Source: Symmetrospora coprosmae
Lineage: Eukaryota > Basidiomycota > Cystobasidiomycetes > Symmetrosporaceae
Direction of reading: 5' to 3'
Length of the DNA: 64,000 nucleotides
NCBI GenBank assembly: GCA_008802785.1
Contig: VUYT01000027.1
Location: 186,001 to 250,000, forward strand
Translations under genes and position numbers: made by a program
Notes under the pieces: generated by a model
Database searches by the model: none
Seen by the model: only the letters and a program-made list of their open reading frames with translations
What the model was told of the DNA's origin: nothing
Shown here: in pieces, positions 8,834-55,245 of the stretch
Position numbering within the stretch: the first letter of the stretch is position 1
Layout: each line of letters begins with the position of its first letter

Positions 8834-9930
8834 ATGCCTACCACCATTAAAGTTGCGCTGGACTGGACTCCCGTTCGTTCTGTCTCGCGATAAGCGATGC
8901 AGGATCCGGGCTGATCATCCCGACCTTCTCGTCTTGTCTAATCTTGACAGAACCCGCTCCACGCTGGTTTCTATGTTGCGCTCTCGAAGGGCCTCTACGC
9001 GCAGGCTGGGCTCTCCGTCGAGCTGATCTCACCCTCCGCCGATGGCTACGCGACAACCCCGGCCAAGAAGCTCTCGACTGGCGCTGTAGACTTTTGCCTT
9101 TGCCCTAGCGAGAGCGTCATCAGCTACCAGTCGTCCGCAGACGCTTCCGCACGCATCAAGGCGTGCGCCAGCCTGCTCAGCCGCGACGCGTCTGCCATCG
9201 TGTCGCGAACGGCATCCAGGCCCGCCGAGCTGGTCGGCTCCGGCAAAAAGTACGCCAGCTATGGTGCAAGATACGAGGACGCCATCGTACAGGCCATGAT
9301 TGACATTGATGCAGGCGGCAAGGGCAAAGCAGGACAGCTCGAGACGGTCGTCCCGCCCAAGCTCGGCATCTGGGAAACGGTCGTGAATTCGAAGGGCGAG
9401 TGCGACTCGACCTGGATCTTTGAGCCGTTCGAGGGTGGGTCTGCTGTGTTTCCGCTTGCCTGGCGAACGCCGACTGACATATCTCATCAATAGGCGTACA
9501 GGCCAGACGGGCCGGCCACGACTTCACAACGTTCCAGCTCGGCGACTACGGTATTCCCTATGGGTACAGCCCGCTGATCGCCTTCAGAGAGTCCTCTGTC
9601 AACGAGTCAGCCTACAAATCCTTCCTCGCAGCTACCGGTCAAGGCTACGAGATTGCCGCGAAGGACCCGAGCGAGGCGGCTGGCGTCATTCGCGAAGCCA
9701 TGTTGGAAGCAGGCCTGTCCGAGCGTGACACCGATCTGGAGTTCCTCAAAGAATCGCAAGCCAGCATTGCCAGTTACTACAACCTGGAAGGCGGCTTCGG
9801 CAAGATGAAGAGTGAGGTCTGGAAGGCATTCCTGGGCTTCTTGGAGCAGCAAGGACTGCAGAAAGACCGGGAGGGGAGAAAGGTGTCTGTCACGGCAGAA
9901 CAGCTGTTCACCAATGCACTGCTCGGCTAG
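8834..9930 (+). CDS. SsuA/THI5-like (NMT1-domain) protein
   Basis: Protein of 319 residues with a periplasmic-binding-protein fold type sequence related to fungal THI5/NMT1 and bacterial ThiY/SsuA. Exons: 8834-8872, 8951-9434, 9494-9930. Marks are VALDWTPNPLHAGFYVALSK at the N-terminus, SPSADGYATTPAKKLSTG, SYGARYEDAIVQ, GIWETVV, DSTWIFEPFEG, and YGIPYGYSPLIAF; the end EQLFTNALLG is typical of the fungal THI5-like subgroup. True THI5 enzymes make the thiamine pyrimidine from their own His and PLP and carry a CCCFC motif, which I do not see here. This is therefore more likely a pyrimidine-precursor binding or salvage protein than a classical HMP-P synthase. It is followed on the same strand by an MFS transporter 561 bases away. 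Confidence 0.85.
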
Positions 9931-21452: not shown

Positions 21453-22203
21453 TCACGTCCGGCACCACATCTCGTACCGCCACGCAATCTCCCCCTCTGT
21501 AACCTCGCCATCTGGCACCTCGACTCCCTCGAGCCATTGCCTGTGCTCCTCGATGCCTGCCTTCCTCCACTGGCTCTCGTCGAGCTCGGGGAAAAAGGTG
21601 TCGCATGACCACTGCTCGTCGCCCTTTGCGATGCGCGTGAGGAGGATCCGGTCGGCCAGATGCGCGTTCTCGGAAGCGAGGGAAGCAGTGTAGAGCTGAG
21701 CGCCTCCAATGATGAAGGTATGGTGGATGGGCGGAGTGCTGTCGGAGGCGAGGACGGACATGGCTTCGGCGAGTGACTTGGCCTGAAAGACACCTTCTGG
21801 CAGACCGCTGGGCGGGGGAATGACAGCAGGCAGGACAGGACAGTCAGTCTCTGCGTGTGCCAGCATGCGTCGAGCTGTACTGTAGCACCCACAGCTCCTT
21901 TCGCGTCTTTGACGCGCTGAGCACGCAGTTGACGCGATCCTTCAGCGGGCGGAACTTGCTCGGGATTGAGTCCCACGTCGTGCGGCCCATGATGACTGCG
22001 TTCTGCGGCCTGCTGCCGTCGCTGTCACTCTGCTCGCTTGTCGCAGGCACGGTTGTCGTTGCTCGGGCAAAGTATCGCATCTCCTTGCTCAGCTTCCACG
22101 GCAGCGAGCCATCGCGTCCGATCCCGCCCGAGCTGTCGAGCGCGACAATGAGCGTCGCTTTAGGATGAGTGGATGCAGATGGAGACGATGATGAGGATAC
22201 CAT
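21453..22203 (-). CDS. DFR1: dihydrofolate reductase
   Basis: NADPH-dependent reduction of dihydrofolate to tetrahydrofolate in the cytosol; 221 residues, monofunctional (no thymidylate synthase fusion). Minus-strand exons: 21893-22203 and 21453-21807. Marks: [20 protein letters not shown] at the substrate/cofactor site, [28 protein letters not shown] and [12 protein letters not shown], all in the right order. The C-terminal part has [14 protein letters not shown] as in fungal enzymes. The intron is placed between GTGGGT at 21892 and CAG at 21808 because this is the only choice that restores frame with a normal 85-base length; it joins KEL to GLPEGVF. An upstream in-frame ATG exists but adds a sequence with no family similarity. 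Confidence 0.95.
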
Positions 22204-22657
22204 TGCTCTTCGGAGGAGGTGATAGTTGTTGCGCATGAACAGGCAGTGGTGAGGGGAGAAGCCCTCCAAAGGGAGATGCGCATCTCCTTCTCTCGCTCTC
22301 ACGCATTCCACGCGTTAACATGACAATTTTATCGCCGCAGCAGCTGAAAGCCAGCAAACTTTCGCTTGACTGACTCTCGCATCTAAGCTATTCTAAATCA
22401 TCTACAGCTCGCCGGATTGATTGAGGTTTGCCTCGCAGTCACCTTTTCTCGGAGCGCGCGCAACATGGCACCTCTCCGCATGCCCGGCATCACACTCCAC
22501 CCTCACTACCTCCCTGTCTTCACTCAGCGTCCACTGTTAGACGCGTGCTGGAGGTAGAGGGAATGGCTTCTCGCTCGCCCCGACAGCTCTGCACATGCCG
22601 GCTGGCGATCAGCAACGATGTACTGCCCAACCAGCACGACATGGACTCTTACGGTAC
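22204..22657. other. intergenic between DHFR and Sfk1-like copy A
   Basis: Upstream of DHFR and downstream of array copy A, both on the minus strand. Nothing further recognised. Confidence 0.5.
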
Positions 22658-23578
22658 TCACGGGAAGAGATCTAGTGCGAAAGATGCGACGAAGACGATG
22701 AAGACAAGGCAGACGGACCATTCGAGAATAGCCGCCAAGTCGAAGTTGTCTCTGGACTTTGCAATGAAGAAGCCTGAATGCAACATATAAGGGTCAGCCT
22801 AGCCGTTTCGTAAACATTATACGCACTGACTCACCGCTGACTAGCACAATTGAGGCAATGAGGAACAGCACCCGGAACCAGAAGCTGGTCCGTAGATAGC
22901 TGTACTCGGGCCGATAGGTGTTGGCCATGCCGCGATATACGATGCAGAAGAAGGCAGCGGCGACAGTGTAGCCTCCTCTGCGTCGATGATACGGTCTTCA
23001 GTGTGCTCGATGACGCCAATACGCCAACCGATCCGACCGACTCACATGAAAACGCCCAAATAGACGATGTGCATCCTCGGGTACCGTGCCGTGTCGTAGA
23101 CTGCCAGCAAGATCAGTCCGGCTGCACCCACCAAAGCGAACAGTATGGCCAATCCTGCAAAAGCTTTCTGCGCTGCGCTTGCGTACCGCACTAGCCTGCC
23201 GCGCAGCCGAAGCCAGAACTCGATGACGAGCGCTATATCGAAGAGGATCACGGCGATGGCGCTGCCCACTATGAATAGAGTCCGAAGACGGTACGCTCCC
23301 TGGAGGAGTCCCCGAAAGGGGTCAGAGCAGCATAGGTGACTCTGAAGTCCGAGCGGGCAGACGCACCACATCGCTGACGAACGCAATGTCCTGCTTGCGA
23401 TCCATCGAACGGTAGCGCGGTTGACCTTTGCTTATCCAGTAGATCAACATCGTCAAAAGTGTGACTGTGAAGGGCCAGCGTACTGTAAGCGACACCGCCT
23501 TGACAGCCTGCCCGTAAGGAGACGCTCACCGAGCCATGTTGCCGCAGCGACAAGCGGGAAAACCCAGTACGCCGGCAT
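22658..23578 (-). CDS. Frag1/DRAM/Sfk1-family membrane protein, array copy A
   Basis: 225-residue multi-span membrane protein. Minus-strand exons: 23530-23578, 23367-23482, 23046-23299, 22835-22977, 22658-22773; all phases agree (226 codons). It begins MPAYWVFPLVAAATWL (membrane segment 1) and has TLLTMLIYWISKGQPRYRSM, DIAFVSDVGAYRLRTLFIVG, IAVILFDIALVIEFWLRLRG, AGLAILFALVGAAGLILLAV and SFWFRVLFLIASIVLV, and ends AAILEWSVCLVFIVFVASFA with DLFP. The order of helices and the motifs SD(V/I)GA, GRL and AA(V/I)LEW match fungal Sfk1-like proteins. Known relatives act at the plasma membrane or lysosome/vacuole (Sfk1 with PI4-kinase Stt4 and in phospholipid asymmetry; DRAM in autophagy). The stop follows DLFP directly, so it lacks the cytosolic tail of copy D. 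Copy A looks intact and is the best-preserved short-form member. Confidence 0.82.
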
Positions 23579-24106
23579 TCAGTCGATCTACACCAGGTAG
23601 ACTCGATACGCATGTCATCGCAGAGCAGCTCGACAGTCCCGCTTTCATTGGCAACGTTAGCTGAGATTTCTCCCCTTGTTTGGGTGACTGCAACGGCTGT
23701 GAAAGCCTGGCGATCGCGGACAACCTGCACGGACTCAGCAGGGAGCAGTCACCAGACTAGCGTTTCGGGTTAGAAGCACCACGGATGGCACCACAGATAC
23801 CACCTACGACCTTCTACAGTACTGCTTCTCTACTCAATATCACTGAATGCTCGTTGAGCTGGACTTGCTCTTCCCACTGCCGTTTCCATCCGACTGACAT
23901 GTGCAACGACTCTCTTGCCTCTCGCCTCTTTCGCTTACCTGACCCAATACGTTTGGCCCCTCTGCCAGTGACGAGTCCACCTTTTCGCCCTGCTCGACAC
24001 AGGGCTCCTTTCCTGGCAGTGCGTACGGCTCTTCGCGCGCTGAAACGGCCCTGCGATCATGGCGACTCGTCAGCACGCTGGTCGTTGCAGATAGTACCAG
24101 ACTGGA
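23579..24106. other. intergenic between array copies A and B
   Basis: Presumed promoter of copy A and 3' flank of copy B. I see no fifth copy here: neither the start motif (xxYWxxPLxAA) nor the AAxLEW end motif is present. Confidence 0.5.
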
Positions 24107-25074
24107 CTATGCTCGCGGCACCAAGTCGAAAGCAAATGCCGCCATTGTGATGATGAAGAGCATCGAGATGGCCCACTCGAGCACAGCTGCGAGCTCGTGC
24201 CGATCCTCCCACTTGAGCACGAAGAAGCCTTCTCTCGCACGGGGTGTTACTTACATTAGCTGCGCTTTGACCGAGTTCGGAAAGCAGCGTCCGAGGCACT
24301 CACCAATGGCTAATGCGGTGGTGAGGGTCAATAGCGCTAGTTGAAGTCGGAAGCTTCTGAGCAGATGCGGGTATTCATGCCTGTATGCGAATGCCAAGCG
24401 ACGGTAGACTTCACATGCACAGCCTGAAGATATTCTATAGCTGACCCTGAGCGCCGAGCCGACGCAGTCAGCTATGACACTCTGGCGACATCGCCTGTGG
24501 GCAGCGCTCACACGAAGCCGACCAGGAAATACGCATGTATCTTGCGGTACTGCACCGTATCGAAGACGGTCAGAAGAATGAGTCCCTCAGCGCCAACGAG
24601 GGCAAAAGCGACTGCCGCGCCAGCTACCTGCCTTTGGCGGTCACTGGTATAGCGGACAAGTCGCCCCCGGTTCCGAGCCCAGAACTCGACGATGATGGCC
24701 ACATCGAAAAGCACGACCGCGAGAGTGCTTCCGGTGACGAAGAGAGGTTTCAAAGGCCCCGCGCCCTATTCGACGGGTCAGCCAGCGCACTCATTCCAGT
24801 TGACATTCTACCACATGCACGCAGCAGCTCCGAGATGAGCGTGATAGAGCCAGGCTCGTGCTCAAAATGCTGCAGGGCGTGGTGAAGATGCGAATCATGC
24901 ACGCGAGAGCGCACCTCCTCGATACGCGCCAGGAGCATAGTGCCAAGTGTGCCTGTGCAACAGCCGTCACGGTCGAGCTCGCTCAACTCAAGCACCAGCT
25001 CTTTGAGCGAGGTCCAGGCACTCACCAGCCCATATGACTGCCGCGAGAAGAGGCAGTAGCCAGTAGAGGGGCAT
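24107..25074 (-). CDS. Frag1/DRAM/Sfk1-family membrane protein, array copy B (exon 2 abnormal)
   Basis: Minus-strand exons: 25026-25074 (MPLYWLLPLLAAVIWAG), exon 2 from 24952 with unclear end, 24512-24765, 24304-24446, 24107-24228. Exons 1, 3 and 4 have exactly the same lengths as in copy A (49, 254, 143). Exon 3 reads GAGPLKPLFVTGSTLAVVLF and NRGRLVRYTSDRQRQ, exon 4 CACEVYRRLAFAYRHEYPHL, exon 5 AAVLEWAISMLFIITMAAFA ending DLVPRA. Exon 2 starts GTLGTMLLARIEE and later has PGSITLISEL, which corresponds to the DIAFVSDV end of exon 2 in A, but no GT donor follows it in the needed phase (CTGCTGCGT where copy C has GTAAGT). Either a cryptic donor such as GTGCGC at GAGGAG is used, which shortens exon 2, or the copy is decaying. 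The membrane segment of exon 2 in A is also not recognisable. Confidence 0.65.
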
Positions 25075-25402
25075 GCAGACGCCAGGAAGCGATCGCCTGC
25101 CACGATGGCTTAATTCAGAGTGGCTGCCCTGAAGCGTACGTTGAGGCGCCAGACAATCGGGTGCCGGACCCTGTTTGGAAGCTGAGCCACCGCCATGAGT
25201 CAAGTGTCAGTACATATGTTGGCGCTTGCTGACATGTACTAATTCGGGCGCGTCTGCTGCCCAGTACAGATTCCTTTGTTGTGGCTCGCCAAAGGGTTGT
25301 GCCATCTAAACTCGGATCTGACGAATACTCTGATTCCCACCGAAGCAGCAGAATGTTGAAAGTGCTAAAGATGGGGACTGCGTTGGCTGACTCATATGCC
25401 GG
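25075..25402. other. intergenic between array copies B and C
   Basis: Short spacer holding the presumed promoter of copy B. Nothing further seen. Confidence 0.5.
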
Positions 25403-26584
25403 TCATGCGGTGCCGTCGCGGCGTGCCAGTCTTACCGTGACATCTAGGGTCGATATGATGGCACAAGCAGCTCTATATGTAGTACTTGGCGACAGACCGC
25501 CCTTGCCCTCAGGAGGTCTCCGAGAGTATTGGATGTGGCTTCTCTCCTGCTTCGAGTGTTCTAGGGAGGAGTCGGGAGAAAAAACACAGATCAGCTTGAC
25601 AAGACTGGACCGGAGGCGCCTGCACAATGCTACCCACGGTTTTAGATCGAGCGCGAATGCACCCATGAAAGTGATGAAGACGATTGATATGATCCACTCC
25701 AGCAAAGCAGCCGTGTCGTGTTCCTTCTGTCGCTTCAGGACGAAGAAGGCTGAGAGGGATGCGAGATCAGTCTACAACCTGCAGACAGACGTATAGGCGA
25801 AACGAGCTCGTCCTGACCGTTGGCCAGGAACGCCGTAGTGACGGAGAAGACGACTTGAATCCAGAAGCTCTTGGTGAGATACGGGTACTCGTACCTATAC
25901 GCTTTCGCTAGGCGCCGGTAAACCTCGCATGCAAAGGCTGCGGCAATGGCATAGCCGATGCTGAAGGCATTCTTCTTTCAGCCTCACCGATCCATTTGAC
26001 AGATCGAAGCGCTCCGACCTACATGAACACGTAAAGAAGCACGCTGTGCAGATCCTCGTATTCTTCAGTGTCGAAGGCCGTCAAAGCGATCAGTCCCACC
26101 GCGCCCATTACGGCAAAGACGAGGGCCATGACTGCGAGCTGCTTTTGCCGGGCGGAGGTATATCGGACGAGCCGGCCCTGATTGCGAAGTCTGAATTCTG
26201 CTAGCAGAGCGATGTCGAACAGCACGACCGCGACTGTACTGCCTGCGACGAAGAGGGATTTGAGCGGACCGGCGCCCTGGACAGGCGGACAGGCCAAGAC
26301 ATTCAGCTCATATTAACCCGCTGGCAGCGCACTAGCACACTTACGACCTCTGATATCAAGGATAGCCCATCGTGCTGCTCCCGGACATCGCGCGTATGCA
26401 GCGCTCGAGGGCTGCGAATGTATAGCGAGAAAGTGCGCCGTGAACATGGTAGACAAGGTGCCTAGTCAACGATGTCAGGAAGCACGTTCAGTGTGGTAGT
26501 CAATGTGCCATTGGGCAGCACCTACCCGCTCACGTCAGCGCGGCCGATACGGGCAGGAGCCAGTAGAAGGTCATCAGGACTCAT
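25403..26584 (-). pseudogene. Frag1/DRAM/Sfk1-family gene, array copy C (possible pseudogene)
   Basis: Minus strand. Exons 26023-26276, 25818-25960 and from 25749 downward are well kept and match A and B in length (254, 143): GAGPLKSLFVAGSTVAVVLF, NQGRLVRYTSARQKQ, CEVYRRLAKAYRYEYPYL and AALLEWIISIVFITFMGAFA. The front is damaged. In the frame that matches A and B, exon 1 (MTFYWLLPVSAALT, ATG at 26574) hits TGA where B has Trp. Exon 2 begins like B (GTLSTM) but its conserved end (GLSLISEV before a GTAAGT donor) is in another frame. An alternative open chain from the ATG at 26584 exists but encodes no membrane helix. The 3' end reads through DLKP into about 75 residues of unlike sequence to a stop at 25403, unless a GTGGGT donor there is used. 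It is either a recent pseudogene or a 5'-truncated protein. Confidence 0.6.
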
Positions 26585-26990
26585 GCAGTACAAGCCGACT
26601 TGTTCGCTGATCTCGGGACGTAAGTAAAGGACTGACCAGACATATGTGTGCTGCATGGGTCGACGTGATGCGCGACCCTACACAGGCGCAAGCCCTTTGT
26701 CAAGAGCTTGACATCGAAATGGTGACAGGCGGCCAGGCGCTCGCTGACACGCACAAGTGATGGAGTGCTTAGCTGGTCAGCAAGCGGACCGTTGTGAACT
26801 TGTCAGGTTTGGAAATTGTCGTGCTTGGAAAGGACTCCGCCAAAGCGTCGCGTCCATGCACCTCTGGATTTTCGGCTCAGAAAGCCGAGTAACGGCACAA
26901 CTATGCACATCTAGGAGACAATACTTACAATCTGTATGGACACTGACTGCTGTTGCTATTAGGCTGCGTGTATAAGCATTTGTGGGCTCC
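26585..26990. other. intergenic between array copies C and D
   Basis: Upstream of copy C and downstream of copy D. No gene recognised. Confidence 0.5.
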
Positions 26991-28276
26991 CTAGAAATTG
27001 CGAGCGGGGTACATGGCCTGCTCGCCACCATTTTGGACCATGGGCTGGCCCGAGGAGTAGCTGTCGCGTCCAATGGGGGTGTTACTCCCTGTTGGGTGAT
27101 TCGCATAGTGTCCAGAGGGGTCCTCCCGGAAGACGGGCCCTCCAGTGACGCTCGGGCCGTTTTGCTGAGCCATAGCCATCTCCTCGGCAGTCGGGAAGCG
27201 GTCGTGCTTGCTGCCGACAGCGGGAATAAAGTCCATAATGAAACTAGCTTGATAGAGGATGAAGAAGCTTGCACGATAACATATCACACCTGTCAGGAGA
27301 AGTTCTCGCCACCCACTGCTTAGAACCGAATACCGGCATTTTGAAATCACTCACAGACAAACGGTCCACTCCAATACGGCGGCCGTGTTGTACCGATCGC
27401 GATAATTCTCGACGCCAAAACCGATGACAAGGGCGACCTCGATAAAGATGAAGGCGAGCTTTGTCCAGAAGCTGATTCGAAGGATGCGGTACTCTCTGAA
27501 CTTCATCCCGAGTCGCTGGTACTCTGCGCAGATGAAGATGGCAGAGACGACGTATCCGGCACTGTATGGGGGAATTATTCAGGTCAGCGGCCTTCTCAAA
27601 TAACGCACGGCAAGACCAGTCCTCACACAAAACTACCATCGTAGCGGAAAGTGCGCCAGTGGGGAACAATGGGTCAGCGCTCAGGGTGAGCGAGATCTAC
27701 GCCTCAAGCACTACCTGCTCACATCCCAAGTCCAGTGTAGTGAGCTCCTCGGTGATACCGCGAATTGGCGGATGCCAGGAGGATCAAGCCCGCTGCTCCA
27801 ATGATGGCAAAGACCGAGGCGAGAACCGACAGAATCTTCTGGCCCTTACTAGTATTGTGCGCGAGGCGTCCCTTGTGGCGGAGCCAGCGCTCGGATATGA
27901 AAGCCAGGTCGAAGATGACGACCGAGACTGTCGATCCAGCAATGAACAGAGGCTGGATACCCGTCGCGCCAATGTCACTGGGTTTCGTGCGACCGAGTAA
28001 CAGTCAGTCGTCCGATCATGACGAGCTCGAGGAGACAGTGCCCAAAGCGTACCTGACGTATGCGATGGTCTGAGCGGGATCCATCGTAACATACTGCGGC
28101 TTGCCCTGTGCCAGCCAAACGATCATCATGGCGAGGAGCGTGCCTGCAGGAACCGCCACATTGACGTCAACACTCAACTCTGGGAGCAGCTGCACAGCAC
28201 GCGCAGAACGCACCGAACCATACTGCTGCTGCAAGGAAAGGCAGTTGCCAGTACGAGAGGAACCATCCGCAGGCCA
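26991..28276 (-). CDS. Frag1/DRAM/Sfk1-family membrane protein, array copy D (long form)
   Basis: 297-residue member and the most canonical of the four. Minus-strand exons: 28213-28276, 28053-28143, 27723-27977, 27355-27561, 26991-27267 (298 codons). It reads SYWQLPFLAAAVWFGTLLAM, DPAQTIAYVSDIGATGIQPL, STVSVVIFDLAFISERWLRH, GRLAHNTSKGQKILS, FAIIGAAGLILLAS, GYVVSAIFICAEYQRLG, LRISFWTKLAFIFIEVALVI and NTAAVLEWTVCLFFILYQAS. This is close to the fungal Sfk1-like consensus as I know it (SDIGA, ERWLRHxGRL, NTSxxQK, ICAEYQRLG, RISFWxKLAFI, AAVLEWxxA). After the last helix it carries a polar tail of about 75 residues (SKHDRFPTAEEMAMAQQNGP) absent from A and B. Its exon lengths differ from A-C, so it looks like the older paralogue. 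The last intron ends in CAAG. Confidence 0.9.
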
Positions 28277-28755
28277 TGTTTGCCAGTTGTGTGAGTCTTT
28301 TTTCTTTCAGGCCCAAAGGGAGAGATCCAGAGAGCAGGGGTGGCGCGCTCTGCACTCGACGTCAAGGGAGCGGCGGCGGCAGCGAGATGCAATGCACAAT
28401 AGCGTATGTATGGACGGTGAAAGATGCGGATGACGCAGAGAAGAGGGGAAGGGGATGAGCAGCAGAGTAAATCTATGTTGGGCGGCTTTTTGCAGTGATG
28501 TAATCACGCTCGCAGCTCACTCACGGCCTCACGTCGGACAGTCATCACGGTCGATCATTTCAACCCGCCAGCCCGGGAAAGCCGCGCCGCCGTCGGATGG
28601 ACTCCGGCCGAACCCCCCTTTCGTCACGTGACCGCCATCGGCGATTGTCGGAGATAAGCTCAAGTATAGGGTGAGTAGGGGCGCCCTGCCTCTGCATTGC
28701 ACAGTCAAGGTGCCTCTGCTTTCTTGCTTGCTCGAGGTGTTGGCCAGTAGTAAGA
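28277..28755. promoter_or_regulatory. divergent promoter, Sfk1-like copy D and thioesterase
   Basis: 479 bases between divergent starts. The 28310-28460 part is purine-rich. No gene seen. Confidence 0.5.
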
Positions 28756-29547
28756 ATGCCTTCATACGATGAGGCCATTCCGCCATTGCGGGCTGAGCCG
28801 CCGAACGGCAAGAAAGCCACGAGCAGCTTCATTTTCCTGCACGGACTGGGCGACGAAGGGTCCAGTGAGGCGCGCGCCTGCGGCCATTCATGAGGGCGGC
28901 ACTGCTCCACACACGACGACACGTCTAACTCAGCTCGCGCAGGCTACCAGAATCTGGCAGATCAGTTCCATCGCGCGGGCAAGCTTCCCAACACCCGCTT
29001 TGTCCTGCCAACGGCCGAGTTCAACAGGGACGCTGCGGAAAGAGCGTGGTACCCACCCGTGTCTCCGCATTTCGAAGATGCATCGGGAGCAGGAGATAGC
29101 ATCGACGTCTACGAGCCTGCCATGGCGGTAGTGGACGCACTCATCGAGGCAGAAGTGCAGAGCGGGATTCCTCGCAATCGCATAGTTGTGGGGGGCTTCT
29201 CGCAAGGCTCGGCCGTCACCATCCTGTGGGCCCTGCGGAACCAGAAGAGAGCGGAAGACAAGGTGGCTGCTCTGGCCATGGTTGCTGGCTACGTTCCGAT
29301 GCGAGGCAGCCTGGACAAGCTGGTGCAATCGGACAGGGCGCTCCTCAGGGATCAGCCCATTGTCATCATCCACGGGCAGGAGGACACGCTCATCCCGCTA
29401 TGGGTCGCGCAGAAAGGCATCAAGCTGATCGAGGAGGACTACCAATTCGAGGTCAACTGGGCCGCATGCCCTGGCATGCGGCACAACTTTACGGGACAGA
29501 GCATGGGCATGCTATGTCAGTTCCTGGAGAGCGTCCTGGAGGAGTGA
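28756..29547 (+). CDS. acyl-protein thioesterase 1
   Basis: Cytosolic serine hydrolase that removes palmitate from proteins (and hydrolyses lysophospholipids); 237 residues, the usual size. Exons: 28756-28864 and 28943-29547. Marks: SSFIFLHGLGDEGS forming the oxyanion region near residues 24-37, RAWYPP, the nucleophile elbow GGFSQGSA with Ser near 123, VIIHGQEDTLIPL with catalytic Asp near 186, and GMRHNF with catalytic His near 216. This is the phospholipase/carboxylesterase family triad in the standard order. The single intron is placed inside DEGS|YQNL with phase 1. Confidence 0.95.
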
Positions 29548-29951: not shown

Positions 29952-31966
29952 ATGGCCGACAGCAAGGATACGCCGAGCACGGCTGGAACGGCGGGAACGC
30001 TGTCGCATACAGAAGATGGTGCATCTCCCGGCTATCCGTCAGGCTCGTCAGCGCGTGCGCCGAGCATCGCCACCAGCGCGACGACACGAGCCAGTGCGAG
30101 TACAGCGGGAGGATACGAGACGGCCGATGCAGGCGCGCATATCGATGCAGATGGATCAGTAGCACCCACAGATGGCCGTGTTGGAGCTGCTGCAGCAGCG
30201 GAACGCGAGGGTCCAGCTCTCTCGACAGCAACGGCTGCGGATGCTGACGCCGCGCACGAGCCCGAGGAGGACAGCAATGACGGCGACGACGAAGAGCATT
30301 ACAATGCAAGCAGATCCTCCTCCCAAACAGGCGCGCAGCCCATCAACACAGCCCTCGCCATCCCTCCTCCGTCCAGCGCGACAACCCCGACGTCGTTTCA
30401 CTCGATGACGCCCGCCTTGCAGCTACGTCTCGGCCTCTTCCACCGCCTCAAAGCTGGCGTACTGTCACTCCGCGGCCGCACAAAGTTCGTCCTTGGATTC
30501 ACCTCCTTCCTCTCGCTCGCACAGGTCGCGACCTTCATCACCCTGCTCGCCTTGACCGCGAGCGACCCGTGCGACAAGCCCTTGCGGACGTACCTCGCCC
30601 TGCACGTCGTGCGCGTGTCCGTCGCAGCGCCAATAAAGGTCTACAATGCGCTTGCGCCGAGAAGGCGACGAGGCGACGAGGATACGGAGGAGGCCAGAGA
30701 GAGGCGCGAGCGGAACAGGCTGGTCGGGAATCAACGGCTCGATGCGCGTGTCAGGGGGTAAGACGGTGCACCCCTAGTTCCTCCAGACAAGCACACGCAT
30801 CTAACATGCGAACATCTCAACCTTGTCGCCCGCAGCCTCACGGACCTCGTTTCACTCTTCTCCTTTCTCTGGTTCGTCCTAGGCAATTTCTGGGTCTTCT
30901 CGTCGCTACACACCTGCAGGGCGTCCTCTCCCGAACTATGGTGGGGCAGCATGGCGAGCCTCATCATTTCATACTTGCGTGCCGTCGAGATCCTTGCGAT
31001 CGTGCTCGCCGTCGTCTTCTTCCTACCAGGTGAGCCGGCCCTGCGGCTCCTGAGCTTTGCGGGTCCTCTACTGATGCGCCCGAACGTCCGTCATCTGTTT
31101 CCTCAGTCGTTCTCCTCGGTATGCGCATGTTCGGCGGCCTGGAAAAGAAGCACGAGATCGGTCCATTGACGAAAGAGCAAATCGAGAAGCTGCCCAAAGT
31201 GTGCTATATACCGGCTCCGCCTGAAGAAGGACAAGCAAAGCATGCACCGGAGGCTGGAACGGATGAGGGTGCCGCTCAGTCGAACCAGATCAGCACGGCT
31301 GTTTCAGACAAGCCGGAGGTGCAAAGAGTGGAGTTGGAGATGCAGGATCTGTCTCGGCCAGAAGCTGCATCTCCGAAAGTGCCTCCGGCTGTTGCCGAGC
31401 CGGCGCCCTCGCCCGCAACAGGACCGCCTGTCGCGCTGCCTGCAACAGAAGCGAAGAATCCGGCCGCGCCCCCTGCGACCGCGGCCCGTCCAAGGCGGCG
31501 GCACTTGCTGCGCCTCTTCTTCCGCCGTCACCGCGAAGCTCCCGCAGACACGTCCGCGACCGACAAAAGCGCCGGCCCCGGATCCGACGGGATATACGTG
31601 TCCACGCCGCACCCGCTCCACGCGCTGCCGGACAACCTGTCTACTTGCCCAATCTGCCTTTGCGACTTTCTCGCTCCGCCCCTGCGCAGCGAGAGCGCAG
31701 CCGACCAGGCAAAGAAGCTCGCAGAGCTCGAAACCCTCAATCTCCTGCCGTGTGGGCACTGCCTGCACAAAGACTGCCTCGCAGAATGGCTCGCTACCTC
31801 GGGCCGATGCCCCGTCTGCCAGGCTGCCGTGTACCCTGAGCTGGAAGATAAGGAAGGCAAGAAGGGCGGCCGAATACGAAGACGCTCCCGCACAGCTAGT
31901 ACAGCTGCCCCCGCTTCAGGTGACGGCCAGGGCCAGCAGCAGAACGGCAGTGATAACAACGTGTAA
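29952..31966 (+). CDS. membrane-bound RING-H2 E3 ubiquitin ligase
   Basis: 619 residues if translation starts at MADSKD; exons 29952-30757, 30836-31029, 31107-31966. The N-terminal 170 residues are acidic and Ser/Ala-rich. Membrane segments follow: FVLGFTSFLSLAQVATFITL (about 177-205), SFLWFVLGNFWVFSSLHTC and VEILAIVLAVVFFLPVVLLG. The C-terminal half is Pro/Ala-rich with a basic RRRHLLRLFFRRHR patch and a RING-H2 domain near residues 513-562: CPICLCDF, then LLPCGHCLHKDCLAEWL and CPVC, with C-x2-C, C-x-H-x2-H-x2-C and C-x2-C ligands all visible. An insertion (APPLRSESAADQAKKLAELE) lengthens the first zinc loop. The architecture fits a fungal membrane E3 ligase; substrate and compartment cannot be read from sequence. 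Confidence 0.85.
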
Positions 31967-37735: not shown

Positions 37736-40700
37736 TCAACCGCGGAAAGTGGGCGGCAGTGACCCAACGTGACCCATCTGCTGCATAGCAGCCGCAACCT
37801 GCTGCATCTGCGAGGCACTGAGATGCCCGGCTCCGCTGAGCCCGTTCAGTTGCACACTCGGTGATACGCGCCTGCCTGAAAGCGATAGGAAATTGATTCA
37901 GCCGGGCTCAATCGTGCCATCTGCGATGCAATTCACCTTGGGGCCCTCTTGAGATACTTGATGCTTGCTTAGCGGGATCGAGATGGCGGTATGCGCAATT
38001 CGCACCTGTGAAAGCCAAGGTAGACATTAGCACCGAGCTCGAGGAACTTCTTGACAATCAATAAGCACGCACCAAATGGGCAATTCTCCTGATTCCTGCA
38101 CAGCGGCATCTCTCCTCGCCTCCCCGCCTGACCCGGTGCCGAGGCTGCGGAGGGGTGCGCAAACCTGCACACAGGATTGGCGCACGCACTGCCTCTGAAG
38201 CACGCCTCTTCGACGTCGGGCAGCCCGCGCTGGGTCGCCACAGCCGCGCTGGCCGCCGGGGACGGGTGCGCAAACCTGCACGAAGCATTGCGGCAGCCGA
38301 CAGAGAAGCGACATCTGACTACGGTTGGTGCCGGCCCCGTGGAAGCTCGACGCGCATCGCACAAAGGCCGGTCAAGTGCCAGCAGAGATGCCGCCACACC
38401 CGCGGCGCTTCCACTTGAGGAGGAACGGCTCGAGGGAGGACGGCGCATTTGGGATGAATCGGGTACATCTGTCAAGGGTGGTGCACATAGGCTGCGTGTA
38501 GTCGCGGCTGCAGCAGGCAACGAGAACGATGGTAAGGTGGCTTGATGTACGATGATGTCGAGCGAATCGGCCTCGGATGTCGCTGCTGGCGAGGACGTTG
38601 CCTCCACGGGCGTCACTTCGCAAAGGACTCTCTCGCTCCGGACAGTGCCAGCAGCGGCGGTCGCGGTCGCTGTGATAGGCGAAGGCGAAGGTGTCGCAGG
38701 CATCAGGTCACTAGCCGTCATCCGGCTTGTCGTGCCTCGGCGCTGGACACTACAAGCCTCTGCTGTCGTCGCATCCGCTTGTTCAGCAAATGGTGCAGTC
38801 GGCTTTTCCGTTTCCTTGTGCTGAGGCGGATGTGGTGTCGGATGCCGCGAGGCCAGCAACGAGAGCGGCATCCACGTTCTCTCCAGGAATGCTATCTGCC
38901 CCCAACGTCAGTGCGCTCGTAGTGAATCGCCGCAAAGGCTGCACTATAAACCCCGGCAACTCACTGTCCTGCTGCGCCCGCATAGTTCCTACCGCTGCTG
39001 GATTAGAAGCAGCAGTGTATGGCGAGGCCGTCGAAGGAGAAATGAGCAGCGCCTCAGCCGGCGTTGTGCCGGGTGCCGAGGTCTTCGGCAGGCTGGTAGA
39101 GGATGGTCGCTCCGGTAGATCCGGCTGCCTCCTGATGTCCTCCAGGAGTTCCAGCCCGATGCCGAGTGACATGTCGGGCGCATGCGCACGTAGATCAGGA
39201 CTCTTGCTCTTGGCTTTGCTGGAAGGCGCGGTGTGGATGGGCAGCATAGCGCCTGCGTCGTCTACTCGATCCGCCGCGGGGGAGTTCGGAAGTGGGCGAA
39301 GCTGGCCTCCTTCTACCTCTGCAATGGCTGACTCGGAACTATAGGTGGTGCTGGCAGTAGCAGAGAAAATCTGCGGGTCTGAGCGGAACGTGTGTGGCAG
39401 TAGTCGCGCTTGCGGTAGAATGAGAGGTGAATGCGCAACCTCCGGCTCCGGCGTATCTTCGATAATCTCGTAATCTCCCAGCATCCTCTTGGACGGGACG
39501 TCTTCTAGCCTAGCGGCAGTCATCGTGCCTGCGAACCCGCTCTCTTGAGCATCTGACAGGTCTGCGATTTCCGCTTCAGCTTGGAGCGTTGTATCAGCAC
39601 TGTCGTCTTGACTGCTGTGACCTCCTATAGCTGGATCTCCGAACGAATGCATTGCCTGATCTTCATCCAACCCCTGATCTGTGTGCAGACTCAGGGCGTC
39701 CTCCGCATCTGTCAGAGCCAGTAGTTCTGGACTCTGCGATGATGCGATCATTGTGGTATCGAAGCCGGGCGGGCTCCCTTGAGTCACTTGCGATGCGAAA
39801 GTTGTCGATTGGGAGTAATCGACAAAGCTCGAGCTAGGCGCCTCGAGCAGGGAGGAGTACCCGGTGGTTGCGTCTGCTTGTGTCTCGCCATTGGCGAGGT
39901 CGACATCCATGCCATTCGTTCCCACACCGCCCATATCATCATCTCCGTATGAAGTGACCTCCGCTGGTGGCGGTGATCCCGCTTCCAAAGGTGGTGAACC
40001 GGCCTCGAAAGGTGGAGACCCAGCTTGGAAAGGAGGCGAACTGGATGACGCCCCGCCGATTATACCGTGCGAATGACCGTCACCGCTCAGTCCAGGCGGC
40101 AGCTCGAAGAGATCGTCCCGCGCCTGCTCGCGGGCAGCCGGGGAGACTGTGCTGGCAAGTTGTCCGACCTCCGGTGCCGACATCGATGCTTCTGCTGCAG
40201 CAGGGGGAGGCAAGGCCGTCCTTTCCGAAGCGGTATTCGTGACGAGTGCGCTGCTGAGGGAGGCGGGCAGAAGAGCCGGAATGAGCCGCGCTTGTGGCGC
40301 AGACATCCGAGATGATGGCTGAATCTGCGAGCGGGAAGACTGAGGCGAAGTGATGGCAAGGCTGGGAAGGGAGTCCGCTGCTAGTCGCGAGTTTTGCTGC
40401 GACAGGGTATCGAGCCCGACCAGTCTGTCTTCGCCCTTCTCCGCCAGTGTGATTTGGGCTCGCGTCCTTGGCTGAAGTGTCTCCTCTATCGGCTCCGCTC
40501 GCTCACCAGCCACTGCACGATCCTCTCCATGCGTTTGACCGTCCGCTGTTTCAAAGGCAAGCGAGTCTGAGCCACTGTCGCCGGCGGGGTCAGCGGACAG
40601 GATTTTGTGCCTAATGTCCGTACGAGCAGGCCGAGCAGCCTGTGAACTGGCATGCACTGCACTTCTGCGGCTGAAGAAATCGTGCTCGTCATCCTCTCCG

Positions 40701-43700
40701 CTCGCATCTTGATCGCTGGCGACACCTGCTGGCGGAAGAGTCGATGTGACGGACTGAGGCGTCCCTCCCTTCCTTATCGTATTGGCGCGCGCCGAAGGGA
40801 CGGCTCTCGGTTTATTGGACCGCGACTGTAAGGCCCCTGCCTCTACGTCACTGTCGAGGTTTCCGGTTGCCGACACTTTCAGCCCAACGGCACCTCGAGC
40901 TGTGCTGTCATTTGCGGACGATGGCGGCTCGATGACTGCCGCTGTTGGCGCACCTGCTGATGTGGTAGGTGCGGAAGCAGGAGGAGGCGGGAGTGCAGCA
41001 GCAGGTGTGAATGTAGAAGGCTTCGCTGACGGTACCGTCGGCTGCGATGAAGAGGGCAGAGACGCCTTGCTGAGCGAACCGGAGGCCTTCTTACCGAGAC
41101 GTCTGAGCGGAATATTCTCATCCTCATCGCTGCTGTCTGAGATCTCGATGACCTTGTGGCCAGGCGCAGCGAGTGCGGCCTTCCTAGCTGCAGCAGCCGT
41201 CCGGGGCTGGATCCCATTCGGTGCGGGGTGGAGCTGTGCCGCACTCGGTTGTGGTTGCGACCCGCTAACCAGAGCACTGTCCGCCGCTGAGGGCGCTGCT
41301 TCCGGCGACGACGTGAACAGGGATCTGTGCGCATCTGTCGCAGCTTCAGGCCTAGATGGCTGTGAATGCTGAGGAGCTGCTGAAGGGCCAACTGGCTGCG
41401 TCTCAGCAGGAGGTCGATTCGGCATCTTGAGCTTGATCTTAAGGCCAGTGCTTGTACTGGCGGGTGCGCTAGCCGGCGGTGCAGGAGCCGACAGTGGTGC
41501 AGACGGCCCGCCGGCGCTGACATGATCGGCTATCTTCTGTCGCTTCTGGCTCTGACTCTGGTCCGCAGTACTGATGGCGGCCTGGCTGTCAGCTCTACGC
41601 TGCGCCTCCTGCTGCTCGCGTCTGCGCTTCAGAGCCGTGCGGTTTGCAGCGTGAGGTATCTCCACGACGGGATATAGCCGTGGCTTAGGAGCGATTGCGC
41701 TTTGAACCGAAGATGGAGCAGCTCGAAATCCGCTGGCCGACCCGGACGGTGGTGGCTGCTGCGAGGCCGGCTGCTGAGGCGGAGCCAGTGCCACCGTCTC
41801 TGCAGGCCGGCTGACAAGGCTTGCACTGCCATCAATAAGGACGTCGTCGTCTTCGACATCGCTGTTATCTACAATGACGCGCTCCTTGCCTCGCGGCGGT
41901 CGAGCGGGCGTCGGCTTGTTGGACGCAATTGTAGGACCGTCGGCCTCTTTTGCGGACGCCGGAGTCGCAGACGTAATTTCCGGCTGAATGCCCCTGTGAG
42001 CGCTGCATTCTTCGACCGCATCGGTTGGCACATGCATCGTCTCGTGCGTCTGATTTCCTGGCTCTGGGGACGATTCCGATGCCTCCGCCGCAACCATGCT
42101 CTCCATCGCCAGAGTGAGCGGCGACTTGCTGCGCTCTCCCACTTTCGTTGTATTGAGGGCGACGATGGCTGCTTCTGCCGACGGTGAAGTCGCACGGCTG
42201 GGCTCCGCCCGCGCCAAGGCGTCTGCGCGTGCTCTGTCGCTAAGCGCAGCTTGCGCAGCCATCAGACCCGTGAGTCTCGCGCGTCTCTCCGCCTCGTGTG
42301 CACTAAGGACCAGTGGCCCTGTCTCGGTGTGGTCTTCTCCCTTCTCCGCGCCCCGTGCTGCGCCCCGTGCTGCGCCAAGGCTCTCTACCTGCTCCTGTCC
42401 CTGCCTCTCCACCCTTGCGAGCGCCTCATCCCTCTCTCTTCGAGCAGCTTCACTTGCGCGTCTACTCTCCTCCGCCGCTGCGAGCGCCTTGTCTCTGTCG
42501 AGCGTGGGCACAGCCCTCGAAGCAATCTTGATTGGTCCTGCTGTCCACGCACGGCTTTCGGATGCTGCCGCCACTGCAGGGCGCGTAGAGAAGGCGGAGT
42601 TGGCTTTAGATACAAACATTGCCTTCAGAGCTGCTTTGGGAGGAGGCCGGCGTGGATCGGCGGTCGGCGGTGGACGGTTGGCTTCCGTCGCGACTGACGG
42701 CATGGGTGTTGCTGCAGTGTGTGACGAAGCTGAGCTAGGCTCGGGCACTCGATTCGAGCGGGATGTAGCAGGTGCGGGAGAGGCAGATGCGGCGGTCCCG
42801 TTCGGCGCCCCCTCCACCAGTCGGCCTTTGCCTTTCTCCGCTGCGGTGAGTGGACGAGCGAGGCCAGCGTCCAGCCTCAGGTCATCCATCGCCGTGTCGC
42901 CATTTCCGCCGTTCTCGTATGTTGATAACTCGTCAAACTGGGCATTGTCCTGCTCGGGACTGTCATCGTGCCTCCGAGGTGCCATCACGGGCTTTGCAGG
43001 CAGACCGGCGAACGTAGGTTTCTTTGGCAGGCTCGGCGGCGGCGGGCCAAGCGAAGGTGAAGGTGCAGAGGTCGAGGCAGACGTCGACGCGACGGGATCC
43101 ATCGTGGTCGATGGACGCGCCGGCAATGACTGAGCAGGCACGGGCGGACGCGGGTGTGCCGCCTGTATCTGGATGGGCGCGGTCAGGCCCGAGAAGGCGG
43201 CTGCCGACGTGGACGCCGCCGTAGACTGTGTAAAGTCAATCTCCATATCCAGGAAGTCGTCCATGGTCGTCCTGTGCTGCGGGGCCGGGGGCGCCCCCGC
43301 TTTCTTCGGCTGCGCCTTTTCGGGCGCGGGCGACGGTCGCGCAGCAGGTTGCTGAGCCTGCCGCGGTGCTGGGGCCCGACGCGGGTCAACGGCCTTGCTG
43401 CGTCGCGGATCGGCAGCCGGCGCCGGACGGCTCTCGACGACGGGCGAAGCAGAGATGGACGCCGATTCCGATGGTGGACGTGCGGTGCCGTTGGCCATTG
43501 CGTTGCCGTGGCGCAGGGACGGCGCCGCCGCCGCTGCCGCTGCCGCAGTTACGTGGGCGTTCTTGGCGGAGTGCCTCGATTCATGGGTCGAGTTGGTTTG
43601 AGGATACTGGCCAGAGGCGGCCAAGAGCCCGTCCTCGGCGTTAGCGTTGGGGTGCGAGGCGTCCGTGTGCAGCTGCGAGGATGCGTGCGCGTCTCCATTA

Positions 43701-45297
43701 GGAGGGCTCCCTGACGGTCCGGCGGAGCCGTCCCCATTAATCGCAGCTAGTGTGCGCAGCATACGCCTCTCATCCTCCCGCTGATGCTTCCTCCCCTCCG
43801 CGCGCTGCAGCAGCTCCGCGACACGCGGCGCCGATGCGCTGCTTTGCGCGAGGAGCCGCTCGATATTCCTTGCCATGTCCTTCCTCGCGTCCTGCTTGCG
43901 CCTCGGCGGACCGGAGCCGCTAGGCACGGCTTGCATGTCTGGACTTCCTGCGCGCCCGTTCTGATGCGCTGCGTCCGATGAGCCGGCCGGTGCCTGTGCT
44001 TGTGCTTGTGCTTGTGCTTGTGCTTGTGCTTGTGCTTGTACGCCGTTCGGCTTGCGCAGCGGGATAGACACTTTTGTTCCCAGGATCCGGGTACGCTCGT
44101 CTTGGTCTGGACCTACTGCATCGGGCGCGCTTGTCGTGTTCGCGTGCCTGCTGTTCTCGTGACTCGACTTCTGCTGCTCCTGCAGGGCCGTGACGAGGGA
44201 CTGGACGGTAGCCTTGCAGACGTCCCAGAGCGCGGCGTGAAAGACCAGCGTGGTCAGGGACGGCTTTGCGGGAACGTCCGCAGGGGTAACGGCAGGTTCA
44301 GTGCACTCTGGGAGCGGCCGGATCTCAGGCGTTGCAGCTGGCAATGATGCGTGATGAGTCGCTGCGGCGTCGGTCTCGGAGAGCTCTGCAGGAGCCAAGG
44401 CGCCCTGGGCAGCTGGAACAGCCGCATCCTCAGTTTGTGGTGCGTCGGACTTGAACATTGTTTGTGCAGGTGTCTCCTGCAGCATGGCCGGCGGGGAGGA
44501 CGACCAGGCATCTCTGGCGGTCGGACCAGGACATGGGATCTCTGCAGGATTCGAGGCGGTCAGGGCGGGGGCGCAGGCGGTGTGCTCAGGCTCTGATGCG
44601 TCGGGCGCTGTGCCCGTCAGAGGCGGCGAAGGTCCCGCGCTCGCGGCTGCTTGAGCTGGCGCTGGCACTTGAGACAGACGAGCGTTTTCGGTGGCAGGAG
44701 GGAGCACTGCTGTTACATCAGGGAGCGCCTCCTGAAGAAGCGGCTCTGCATGCAGCTGTTTGCGGGCGGAAGCCAGCTCGTGCGCGGCCGCCTCGCGTTC
44801 CAGAGCGCGCACGAGCTCGGCAGAGAAGCCTGTTGCGCTGTCCCGCTGTTAGCTACTGTACGTCCAGGTCCGCACCCAGGTTCACGCCAGCGGGAGGCGA
44901 GGTGTCACCCACCCCGTTTCTGCAGATAGCTCCGCACATTGTCTGCCGAGAGGTAGTCTTCCACTTTGGGTCTCGCGGCGAGCGCGTCTTTCAGTCTGGC
45001 GTTCAGCGCAGCTCTCGCAGCGTCCGCGGGCGTCGGTGCTGGCGGCGACACGGGCACTGGCACTGGAGGCTGCGGCTGCTCTGGAGTATCCTCCCGCACT
45101 TCGCCCTCTTCTGGCGCCTCCGATGTCGCTCGCCTGGGTGGCTGCTGTTCCTCCTCCTTCTCGACTGCCAGCTCGTGCTCGTGCTCGTTGGCCTGCTCCT
45201 CCCCGTGCCCATCTCGCTCGACGAGGAGAGTGAGCTCTGCGAGCAGTCCGTCGACGACCGCTGATCCTGATGCAGAGGCATTGACGAGCGTCGTCAT
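37736..45297 (-). CDS. giant disordered protein with three Nab2-type CCCH zinc fingers
   Basis: About 2,431 residues. Minus-strand exons: 44913-45297, 38876-44829 (5,954 bases), 38073-38820, 37937-38005, 37736-37875; lengths sum to 2,432 codons. The N-terminus is acidic and then has KVEDYLSADNVRSYLQKRGF and LVRALEREAAAHELASARKQ, probably a small helical domain. The middle is low-complexity, rich in Ala, Pro, Ser and Gln, with an Ala-Gln dipeptide repeat, several DPRR motifs (VDPRRAP, ADPRRSK, ADPRRPP), a helical KDMARNIERLLAQ block and an acidic VIEISDSSDEDENIPLRR. Near the C-terminus three fingers follow: CRFSVGCRNASCRFAH, CFRGSACANPVCRFAH and CRNQENCPFGANCAYRH, each CX5CX4-5CX3H as in Nab2/ZC3H14. 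These bind poly(A) RNA in known members, in nuclear mRNA export and tail control. The 55-base intron linking the long exon to the fingers is inferred from phase and consensus; the finger exons could otherwise be a separate gene. Confidence 0.8.
43992..44040 (-). repeat. hexanucleotide repeat encoding Ala-Gln dipeptides
   Basis: About eight near-perfect TGTGCT units (plus strand), translated on the minus strand as QAQAQA in the giant CCCH protein. Nearly identical units suggest recent expansion and likely length polymorphism. Confidence 0.9.
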
Positions 45298-46086: not shown

Positions 46087-49000
46087 ATGTCCACCTACGA
46101 CACGGTCATCCACCACACCATTGAAGATGTCGCACACGAGCTGTACAGCGTACACCCAGAGGTTAATGTGCCCCATCTCGTCTTTACTCTCTTGGCTGGT
46201 GAGTCCCCCATCTGCTAGAGGGGCGGCTGCGACTGCGACTGCGACGACCGACAGTGCGCTGATCTCGAATGCGGATGGCCTGGCTGGCTGGCTGAACCTG
46301 CACAACAGTCTTCATCCTCTTCTTTGGAATGTTCAGGTGTGCCTGCTCCCTTGCCTGCCCTGTCCACGACCTTGTCTCAGTGCTGATGGCAACCTCCCCT
46401 CCCAGCGCCCTCATCAAGGAGCGCCTTTACGTCGGAGAAGCCATCGTCGCCACTGGGTTTGGCATAGCGTTCGGCCCATATGCAGCAGACCTCATCAATC
46501 CAAGATCGTGGGGCAATCCTAGCTTTGACGACATCACCCTCGAGTTCACGCGCATCGTCCTGGCCCTGTCCGTCTTTGCGGTCGGGGTAGAGTTGCCGAG
46601 GTGGGTCAAACTTATGGTCAGAGTCAGCTCCGACTGCCCCAGACACGCACACCACCGCTGATTGCGCCCTTCTGGCGTTGCACTGCCCAGAGCTTATGTC
46701 AAGCGACACTGGCGCTCCCTCATTGTCATTCTCGGGCCCTTGATGATCATCGGCTGGCTCGTCACGGCCGCTTTCATCTACGCGCTCATTCCGGGACTGA
46801 GCTTCCTCGGCGCCCTCGTCATTGCCGCATGCGCCACGCCCACGGATCCAATCCTCGCCGCCTCGGTCGTCGGCAAGGGCAAGTTCGCCCAGAAACACGT
46901 CCCCTCCCACATCCGGCACCTGCTCCAGTGCGAGTCGGGCTGCAACGACGGCGCGGCTTTTCCTTTCCTCTACCTAGCGTTATTTCTCAACTTCAGGGAA
47001 TCGCACTCGGTGGGCCAGGCGATCGGGTGGTGGATCGTCCTCGTGATTCTGTACCAGATCATTCTCGGCGTCATCATTGGCGTCGCCGTGGGCATTGCCG
47101 CGCGCAAGGTCCTCAAGTTCAGCAAGCGGCGCGCACTCATTGACCGCGAGTCGATGATTGCAATGTACGTCTCGCTCGCCATCTTCACCACGGCCGTCAC
47201 GACGCTGGCCGGGTCCGACGACCTGCTCGCGGCCTTTGCGTGCGGCGCAGCGTTCGCGTGGGACGACTGGTTCTCCGAGTCGATCGAGGACTCCAATTTT
47301 TCCAACGTCATTGACCTGCTCGTCAACTGCGCCACGTTCATCTACATTGGCGCGACCATGCCGTTCGCCGACTGGAACAACAGCGCAATCACAATTGTGC
47401 CCTGGCGCCTCATCGTCATTGGCATCCTCGTCCTCCTGTTCCGCCGCCTCCCCGCCATGCTGCTCATGTACAAGTGGATCCCAGACATCAAGACATTCCG
47501 CGAGGCCGTTTTCGCAGGGTGGTTCGGGCCAATGGGCGTCGGCGCCATCTTTATCGCCACACTGGCCCTGACCAAGCTGCCCACGCCCAACGAGCCCCCG
47601 ACGACCCCAGACGATTTCCTCGCCCTCACCATCCAGCCCATCATCTACTTTATCGTCCTGTGCAGCATCATCGTCCACGGCTCGTCCATCCCCTTCTTCA
47701 ACCTCGGCAAGCGCGCCCACTCGCGCGTCAATTCCATGTCGCGCACATGGACAAACCGCTCAGACAGCGAGCCGAGCTGGCTCAGCCGCGTCAAGCGCGT
47801 CGGGGACGGCGAGGCCAACATCCTCGTCAATCGAGACGATGGCGACAACCAGAACGCTGGCAACGGCAGCAGCAGCGAGAAGGAGAAGCGCAGTGGGGAG
47901 AAAGGCCGCGATCTCGACCTCGAAGCGGGGGAGACGGCTATTGACGATCCGGGAATGGACGTAGGGGATATGACCTCCAGAGACTTTGCAGACAACAAGC
48001 GCTCGGAGAAGAAACGAGGCGGCGCGGGCATGCTGGGCATGATGCCAAAGAGCGACTCGCCGGGCGGATCGTCGGACGATACGGTCCAGGGCTCTGGGAG
48101 CGATGACAAGGGCAAAGATCGCGCTAGTCCCCAGTCTGAGAATGAGAAGCACAGCCGCCGCATGGAGCGTCACGATAGCCCTACTCCCGAAGAGGAGGAC
48201 GAGTGGCAAGAAGGGGACGACATTGTTCGCGAAACGCACGACGGCGAAGACACCGAAATCATCCACAAGGATGGAAGCAGGGAGGGCGGGCACACATGGG
48301 AAGCTGCGCACGCCGAGACGCGCGACGGGCGTCGCAAGGACCAGTCTGGTTCCTCCGAGGGCAGAGAGGAAAACGAGTCTGTCGGACCGGGCTTCCCGGG
48401 CGGACACCGCATGCAGGAGATTGCAGCCATGCTGGGAAGGGGACACGGTCTCGCGCACGAGGAGCATGAACAGACGAGTGCCGCGACCCTTGCTGCTAAA
48501 GCTGAAGGGTCCCGTGGACGTCAGGACGAACGGCCGGGCAAGCAGCTCCTCGAGAACGCCACGGAGCGAGTCGTGCAGGATGAAGAACATGAGGCTGCAG
48601 CTTCTCGGTCGCGCTCACGCTCGCACACCGGCTCGGTCATTGCGTGGTCCAATGCGCGCGAGAATGAGCAGCGCGAGCTCGAGGAAGCGCAAGAACGCGA
48701 AGGAGGTGACGAGATGGCGCCTCTGCCCAATGACGCTAGCGAGCATCAGCAAGGCGGCGCCGTGCCCAACGCGCGCCCTAGCGGGCTGCTCTCGACGGCT
48801 GGGTCATTCCTCTCGCGACCCAAGAACCCGAGCCGGCCCACTCTGACAGCGGAGGAGAAGTACGCGCGCGACGCGTGGTGCCGGCGCGAGCGGCACGACG
48901 TTGACGATGACGAGGTCAAGTCCTGGGTGCAGGGCAACCACCTCGTCATTGAGCGCCGGAGCAAGCGCGGCGGCGGCGAAGAGGCCGAGGTGGAGGTGGT

Positions 49001-49562
49001 CGATGCCAACCCGAGCGCCGAGGCGCGCGACCACGCACGGCAAGACCCGGAGCTCCGCGTGCGCTCCGTGCCCATTTCGAGTATCAACGCGGCCAAAGGC
49101 GACATTGCAAAGGAGGACAGCCAGGGCCGGACCGACAAGCAGGGCTCCGGGGAGAGCACGGGCCAGCCGCACCGCTTCGATCTCAAGTCCATCCGCAACA
49201 ATGCCAGCTTCCGTCGCTTCTTTGGCGGAGATGGCCAGGCTGGTAAAGAGAGCATTACCAACAAGCGGGTCGACGCGCCGTCCGGTAGCAGGCAGGGCAG
49301 GAATGCAGATGGCGACTCGAAGGGCGTCTCGTTTGCTCAAAGTACCACGGGCGACGCGCCCCGCGAGGAGGGCAAGCCGAGCAGCAAGCGGATGACGCAG
49401 CAGCAGCAGGGCACATCTTCCGGCAGCGGAGGCGGCGAATCATCAAGCACGCCAAACTATCTCTCGACGCGCAACTTGAAGACTGGGATCGCGCTTGACA
49501 GAACCGATACGACGGACTCGCAAGTCAGGTTCGGGCACCTGCCGGTGCCGAGGCGGAACTAA
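46087..49562 (+). CDS. NHA1: plasma-membrane Na+(K+)/H+ antiporter, Nha1 type
   Basis: 1,068-residue alkali-cation/proton exchanger. Exons: 46087-46198, 46309-46336 (28 nt), 46406-46600, 46691-49562; total 1,069 codons. The first 450 residues are a CPA-type transport domain: ALIKERLYVGEAIVATGFGI, VLALSVFAVGVELPRAYVKR, CATPTDPILAASVVGKGKFA with TDP near 163-165, QCESGCNDGAAFPFLYLAL with the ion-binding Asn-Asp near 197-198, SDDLLAAFACGAAFAWDDWF, and FIYIGATMPFADWN. The final 600 residues form a hydrophilic tail full of Glu, Asp, Lys and Arg, typical of fungal Nha1, where it tunes activity and salt and pH response. Family, length and topology all agree. Confidence 0.95.
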
Positions 49563-54786: not shown

Positions 54787-55245
54787 GCTGGCCAAGCCTT
54801 TCTGAACGATTCCTTCAGGCTCGCGCCCCGTACTGTGTATATCGGGTGCCCGCGTTGCGCAGCTTGATCGTCGTATCGTAACGAATGTGTGGGTGCAACA
54901 GAGCGCAAGCAGCTGCTGGAGCGCAAGCAGCAGAGCGCAAGCAGCAGAGCGCTAGAGCAGCAGCTGCTTGCGCTACCTCGATGCTTAAGATGAACAGAGC
55001 CAATGCCGGGCATCCCTTTGACTGCGGCATGGTGCCGCGACACCAGCGCCTCCCATGTTGAACTCGGTCTGAGCCCGAGCCCTGCTTTGCCGCCTCTTGT
55101 GATATGGTCTGCATGGCTGGAGGCGCCTCTTGAGTGCTGCTCAAGTCGGCACCGATCCGTCTGCTGCGCACGCAGACGGACCGGCCGCCGACCCTTGCGA
55201 CTTCCAGACAGCAGAGCCCCGCGGGAGTGGACCTAGAGGAGGTGC
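54787..55245. other. intergenic with inverted and direct repeats
   Basis: Upstream of the RING gene. It holds the AGC-rich inverted repeat listed separately. No gene supported. Confidence 0.5.
54902..54974. repeat. perfect 16-bp inverted repeat with internal direct repeats
   Basis: AGCGCAAGCAGCTGCT at 54902-54917 is repeated in reverse complement at 54959-54974, with a 41-base loop that itself contains two further GAGCGCAAGCAGCA-like units. It could fold as a hairpin in DNA or RNA. It lies about 115-190 bases upstream of the RING gene start. Confidence 0.85.

Follow-up and report, generated by a model that had tools for sequence, protein, structure and literature searches.

A diverged tandem array of four Frag1/DRAM/Sfk1-family loci in Symmetrospora coprosmae

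Four loci of the Frag1/DRAM/Sfk1 membrane-protein family (Pfam PF10277) lie head to tail on the minus strand at positions 22658–28277 of the window, the 64,000-nucleotide stretch of Symmetrospora coprosmae DNA analysed here (contig C19). The array extends from the stop codon of copy A (22658) to the ATG of copy D (28277). It is probably an old Sfk1-type tandem array under birth and death, in which D and A are working genes, C is decaying, and B is uncertain. The array is a further case of a known family, with ordinary duplication, divergence, and decay and a mild twist at the C-terminal ends. We found no description of an array of this kind in the open-access literature, as judged by titles and the starts of abstracts. 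On one side, part of a dihydrofolate reductase (DHFR) gene adjoins A (21844..22314, minus strand; DHFR_1, 56.3 bits). On the other side, part of a phospholipase/carboxylesterase gene, presumably of the acyl-protein thioesterase type, is divergent from D (28894..29547, plus strand; Abhydrolase_2, 74.9 bits).

The profile search places all four copies above the curated Pfam cut-off for PF10277 (30.3 bits), in agreement with the original prediction of Frag1/DRAM/Sfk1 membership. The cut-off is passed by A and D, by exons 3–5 of B and C, and by two further genes of the genome, E and F (F in two pieces). At these scores, chance is excluded as the source of the matches of A–D. The predicted arrangement of four same-strand paralogues in tandem is borne out by the same search, although its end, placed at 28276, was short by one base. 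The prediction also gave each gene five exons. This is clean for A and D, whereas B and C show five recognisable exons and no clean complete model. Because exons 1 and 2 of B and C are unclean, "four five-exon genes" is too strong a description.

Copy A (22658..23578, minus strand) has exons at 23530–23578, 23367–23464, 23046–23299, 22835–22977, and 22658–22773. The five-exon model is clean, with GT-AG introns of 61–68 nt, and matches PF10277 with 126.9 bits (E 1.1e-36). The encoded protein has 219 residues and six hydrophobic segments by hydropathy, and the stop is positioned 4 residues past the last segment. The stop codon sits within a donor-like GTGAGT, and a further spliced end is possible. 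Such spliced ends comprise up to 46 residues, and by eye nothing in them resembles the tail of D. Judging from the sequence, A without a tail is the simplest model, not a proven one.

Copy D (26991..28277, minus strand) has exons at 28214–28277, 28053–28143, 27723–27977, 27355–27561, and 26991–27267. Its five-exon model is likewise clean, with GT-AG introns, the last acceptor being CAAG; taken together, the introns of A and D are short (61–161 nt). The match to PF10277 scores 124.2 bits (E 7.5e-36). The protein has 297 residues, and hydropathy gives six hydrophobic segments followed by a hydrophilic C-terminal tail of 74 residues. Among solved structures, no relative of D is found, the best match being an ATP synthase subunit (E 0.87).

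Copy B (24107..25074, minus strand) has exons at 25026–25074, 24819–24952 (end uncertain), 24512–24765, 24304–24446, and 24107–24228. Exons 3–5 are intact (PF10277, 73.4 bits, E 2.5e-20), and the stop is positioned 3 residues beyond the last hydrophobic segment; B, like A, appears to lack a tail. At the position matching the exon 2 end of A, B has no GT donor. Splice paths linking the start codon with exon 3 were traced, allowing at most two introns, each of 45–200 nt, and were ranked by a simple home-made splice-site score, the rank order of which is rough. With GT donors only, B has 30 open paths, the two top-scoring of which delete most of loop 1. The sole full-length frame, in which exon 2 is retained whole, requires a GC donor and a 53-nt GC-AG intron, and only under this model of exons 1 and 2 does hydropathy give six hydrophobic segments. 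As a working gene, B is uncertain.

Copy C (25637..26574, minus strand) has exons at 26534–26574, 26345–26461, 26023–26276, 25818–25960, and 25637–25749. Exons 3–5 are again intact (PF10277, 90.8 bits, E 1.2e-25), and the frame stays open past exon 5, to 25403. In exon 1, however, the frame hits TGA where the other three copies have a Trp codon, and an alternative exon-1 splice 8 nt earlier leads into exon 2 in a frame that is closed there by a stop. There are 25 open GT paths. The top-scoring one lacks the beginning of exon 2, and the N-terminus that it yields has no hydrophobic segment above threshold. As modelled, C has five hydrophobic segments by hydropathy rather than six, and its intron-4 donor is weak (GTCAGG). 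On these sequence features, C is probably a decaying copy.

The 20.05-Mb genome (77 contigs) contains at least six members of the family, in two tandem groups. Six is a lower bound, because the exon-by-exon search scored only the best candidates. Searching the genome with PF10277 gives 8 matches at E ≤ 0.001, all within A–D and two genes on contig C16, and 13 matches up to E 10, with contig C65 as the only extra place. Searches with single proteins return the same six genes, with 18 matches up to E 10 for D, including a weak match on contig C55, and 13 matches up to E 1 for E. The C55 match (E 0.0093, query residues 211–274) corresponds mostly to the tail of D and is left out of the count. On C65, a membrane-protein frame (L010 3790–4563, minus strand) scores 18.8 bits against PF10277. 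It is rejected as a seventh member, being below the cut-off, and other membrane families score similarly. The prokaryotic relative DUF998 has no match in this genome. Beyond this genome, a search of viral contigs with the alignment of A–E gives 56 pattern matches, and a search of prokaryote genomes with D alone, which covers close relatives only, gives 17 matches; none of either set is confirmed.

The two genes on contig C16 are also in tandem. Gene E (L009 4796–5811) has a clean four-exon model, a PF10277 match of 97 bits, and six segments by hydropathy. Gene F (L009 6026–7059) stands behind E, and its protein is 59% identical to that of E. F matches PF10277 in two pieces (42.3 and 30.7 bits) and has six segments by hydropathy with one unread codon. 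The acceptor of intron 2 is AG in E and AA in F. With the normal intron-2 donor of F, the in-frame open acceptors omit most of exon 3, and the five open GT-donor paths of F start from weak donors inside exon 2. F is doubtful, not demonstrably broken. A segmental duplication between the two clusters is unsupported by the flanks compared, which are the DHFR and carboxylesterase genes at the array versus a syntaxin-type frame upstream of E.

Exons 3–5 are under purifying selection. Compared pairwise, the six genes give a pS of 0.67–0.81, a pN of 0.26–0.51, and a pN/pS of 0.35–0.75 in all 15 pairs, with B and C compared by exons 3–5 only and F with one codon unread. When 30% of the sites are changed by simulated random substitution, 1.1–1.9% of the exon 3–5 frames remain free of stops in A, B, and C; when 50% are changed, 0.1–0.3% do (substitutions only, no indels). 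Since so few simulated frames stay open, selection has kept the exon 3–5 frames, those of B and C included, for most of their history.

The open and constrained exons 3–5 of B and C are consistent with functional diversification, in which all four copies work and use different first loops and C-terminal ends for different stresses or life stages. In addition, the open full-length GC-AG frame of B keeps TM1, and the models of B and C give exon 2 lengths of 134 and 117 nt, above the 98 and 91 nt of A and D. However, no top-scoring open path of C retains TM1, and the GC donor needed for full-length B is not in consensus. We consider such diversification rather unlikely. Alternatively, the oddities of B, C, and F could be base errors of assembly or sequencing, and the family could consist of six intact ordinary genes. 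Each odd copy indeed has few problems amid open, constrained sequence, but C is affected in two neighbouring exons, and several bases distinguish B from A where exon 2 ends. Base errors are an improbable explanation. In practice, gene models of B, C, and F from automatic annotation should be read with caution, since introns may be forced into them.

Gene structure separates A, B, and C from D. In particular, A, B, and C have in common one intron position (..SG|FF in A) that is absent from D, and they lack a later intron of D (..CL|FF); in E the position is a third one. B pairs with C in both trees (86/98 in the first, 92 in the second), and E pairs with F (100). A is left at an open fork in the first tree, in which D is flagged as a long branch, and the second tree has a 49% branch that unites the B–C and E–F pairs. 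The trees comprise the array and the C16 copies with no outgroup, and do not set the polarity of the A, B, and C group. The prediction that A, B, and C stand apart from D thus agrees with the common intron but finds a counterpart in the trees only in the pairing of B with C, A being unplaced; it is gene structure alone that supports the group. Tail loss as an event, and the order of the duplications, we infer.

The array can be compared with known members of the family. PF10277 proteins are six-helix bundles, according to the cited part of PMC10584675. In the cited part of a study of yeast (PMC9018018), Sfk1 is placed at the plasma membrane and connected with phospholipid asymmetry and integrity. 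According to the same part, truncation of the C-terminal domain of Sfk1 (286–353) makes association with Tcb3 less efficient and, after heat, lowers the membrane signal of the PS probe. In contrast to the older phosphoinositide view, it reports that deleting sfk1 does not significantly alter the PI(4,5)P2 probe. S. cerevisiae Sfk1 belongs to the same Pfam family by name, and its C-terminal cytoplasmic domain is comparable to the hydrophilic tail of D, a likeness of family name and tail rather than of alignment. Unlike in yeast, three further copies follow D here.

By analogy, we infer that D may do what yeast Sfk1 does. Under birth and death of an old array, D would most likely be the working Sfk1 counterpart, with a predicted location in the plasma membrane and a predicted lipid role. 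Under membrane stress, it would help to maintain the arrangement of phospholipids and sterols and, through this, orderly phosphoinositide signalling. A would be a working six-helix paralogue, seemingly tail-less, that keeps the membrane core without the tail-dependent partner contacts. B may resemble A in role if it is spliced with the GC-AG intron, and C would most likely be a decaying copy. As to possible partners, the profile search matches PI4K_N (Stt4 type, contig C18) and EFR3 (contig C17) in the genome. SMP_LBD (tricalbin type) and 6TM_1st_PGAP2IP have no match in the genome, nor in the controls, so that both results are uninformative.

A, not D, may be the true Sfk1 counterpart. Penicillium roqueforti Sfk1, likened here by description and not by alignment, has 235 residues and six predicted helices and is in the size class of A (PMC5723657, cited part). 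Its length is nearer to that of A (219) than to that of D (297), and A may therefore be the counterpart; a short Sfk1 in P. roqueforti also makes tail length a poor guide to orthology. The cited part of that report treats sfk1 as a single gene, the silencing of which reduces apical growth.

A further possibility is that A and B, and C before its decay, make up an Sfk1 subfamily that lacks the tail and has an altered first outer loop, and that this subfamily works together with or against the tailed D. We consider this very improbable. If true, one array would tune the coupling of the plasma membrane to ER contact sites and Stt4. A genome that encodes Sfk1-type proteins both with and, apparently, without the tail is useful for asking what the tail does.

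The mammalian TMEM150, FRAG1, and DRAM proteins have roles in autophagy and in GPI anchors. They are likened to the array by name only, as Sfk1 relatives named in the cited part of PMC9018018 and in the name of PF10277. Among basidiomycetes, a Frag/DRAM/Sfk1 gene is present at a defined place in the siderophore (NIS) Cluster 1 of Armillaria, according to the cited part of PMC10700112. The Armillaria gene lies in a biosynthetic cluster, whereas the array here lies between the DHFR and carboxylesterase genes.

The synonymous divergence of A–B, A–C, and A–D is outside the Jukes-Cantor range, and the proteins of the six genes are 29–59% identical. These values imply either old copies or a very fast-evolving genome. 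An ungapped search for direct repeats of at least 25 nt finds only three families in the region (27–30 nt, matching at 67–78%). The original prediction of a recent lineage-specific expansion with adaptive value is in keeping with the single orientation of the tandem copies and with the second tandem pair on C16, but we reject a recent expansion as highly improbable because synonymous sites are near saturation in every pair, rather than little diverged, and the ungapped search finds no long direct repeats.

The window has several other features. Part of an NMT1/THI5-like gene is located at 8948–9493 on the plus strand (PF09084, 59 bits), and two RING-finger frames (PF13639) are located at 31034–31966 on the plus strand and 54073–54951 on the minus strand. 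The profile search also finds a Zn(2)-Cys(6) domain of fungal type, which, like the short introns of A and D, fits a fungus. An open frame of 2021 residues at 38783–44848 on the minus strand has no Pfam match at 1e-5 and by eye is rich in Ala, Pro, and Ser. Finally, a long open frame at 46662–49562 on the plus strand contains a sodium/hydrogen exchanger domain (PF00999, 152.6 bits) followed by a long charged stretch.
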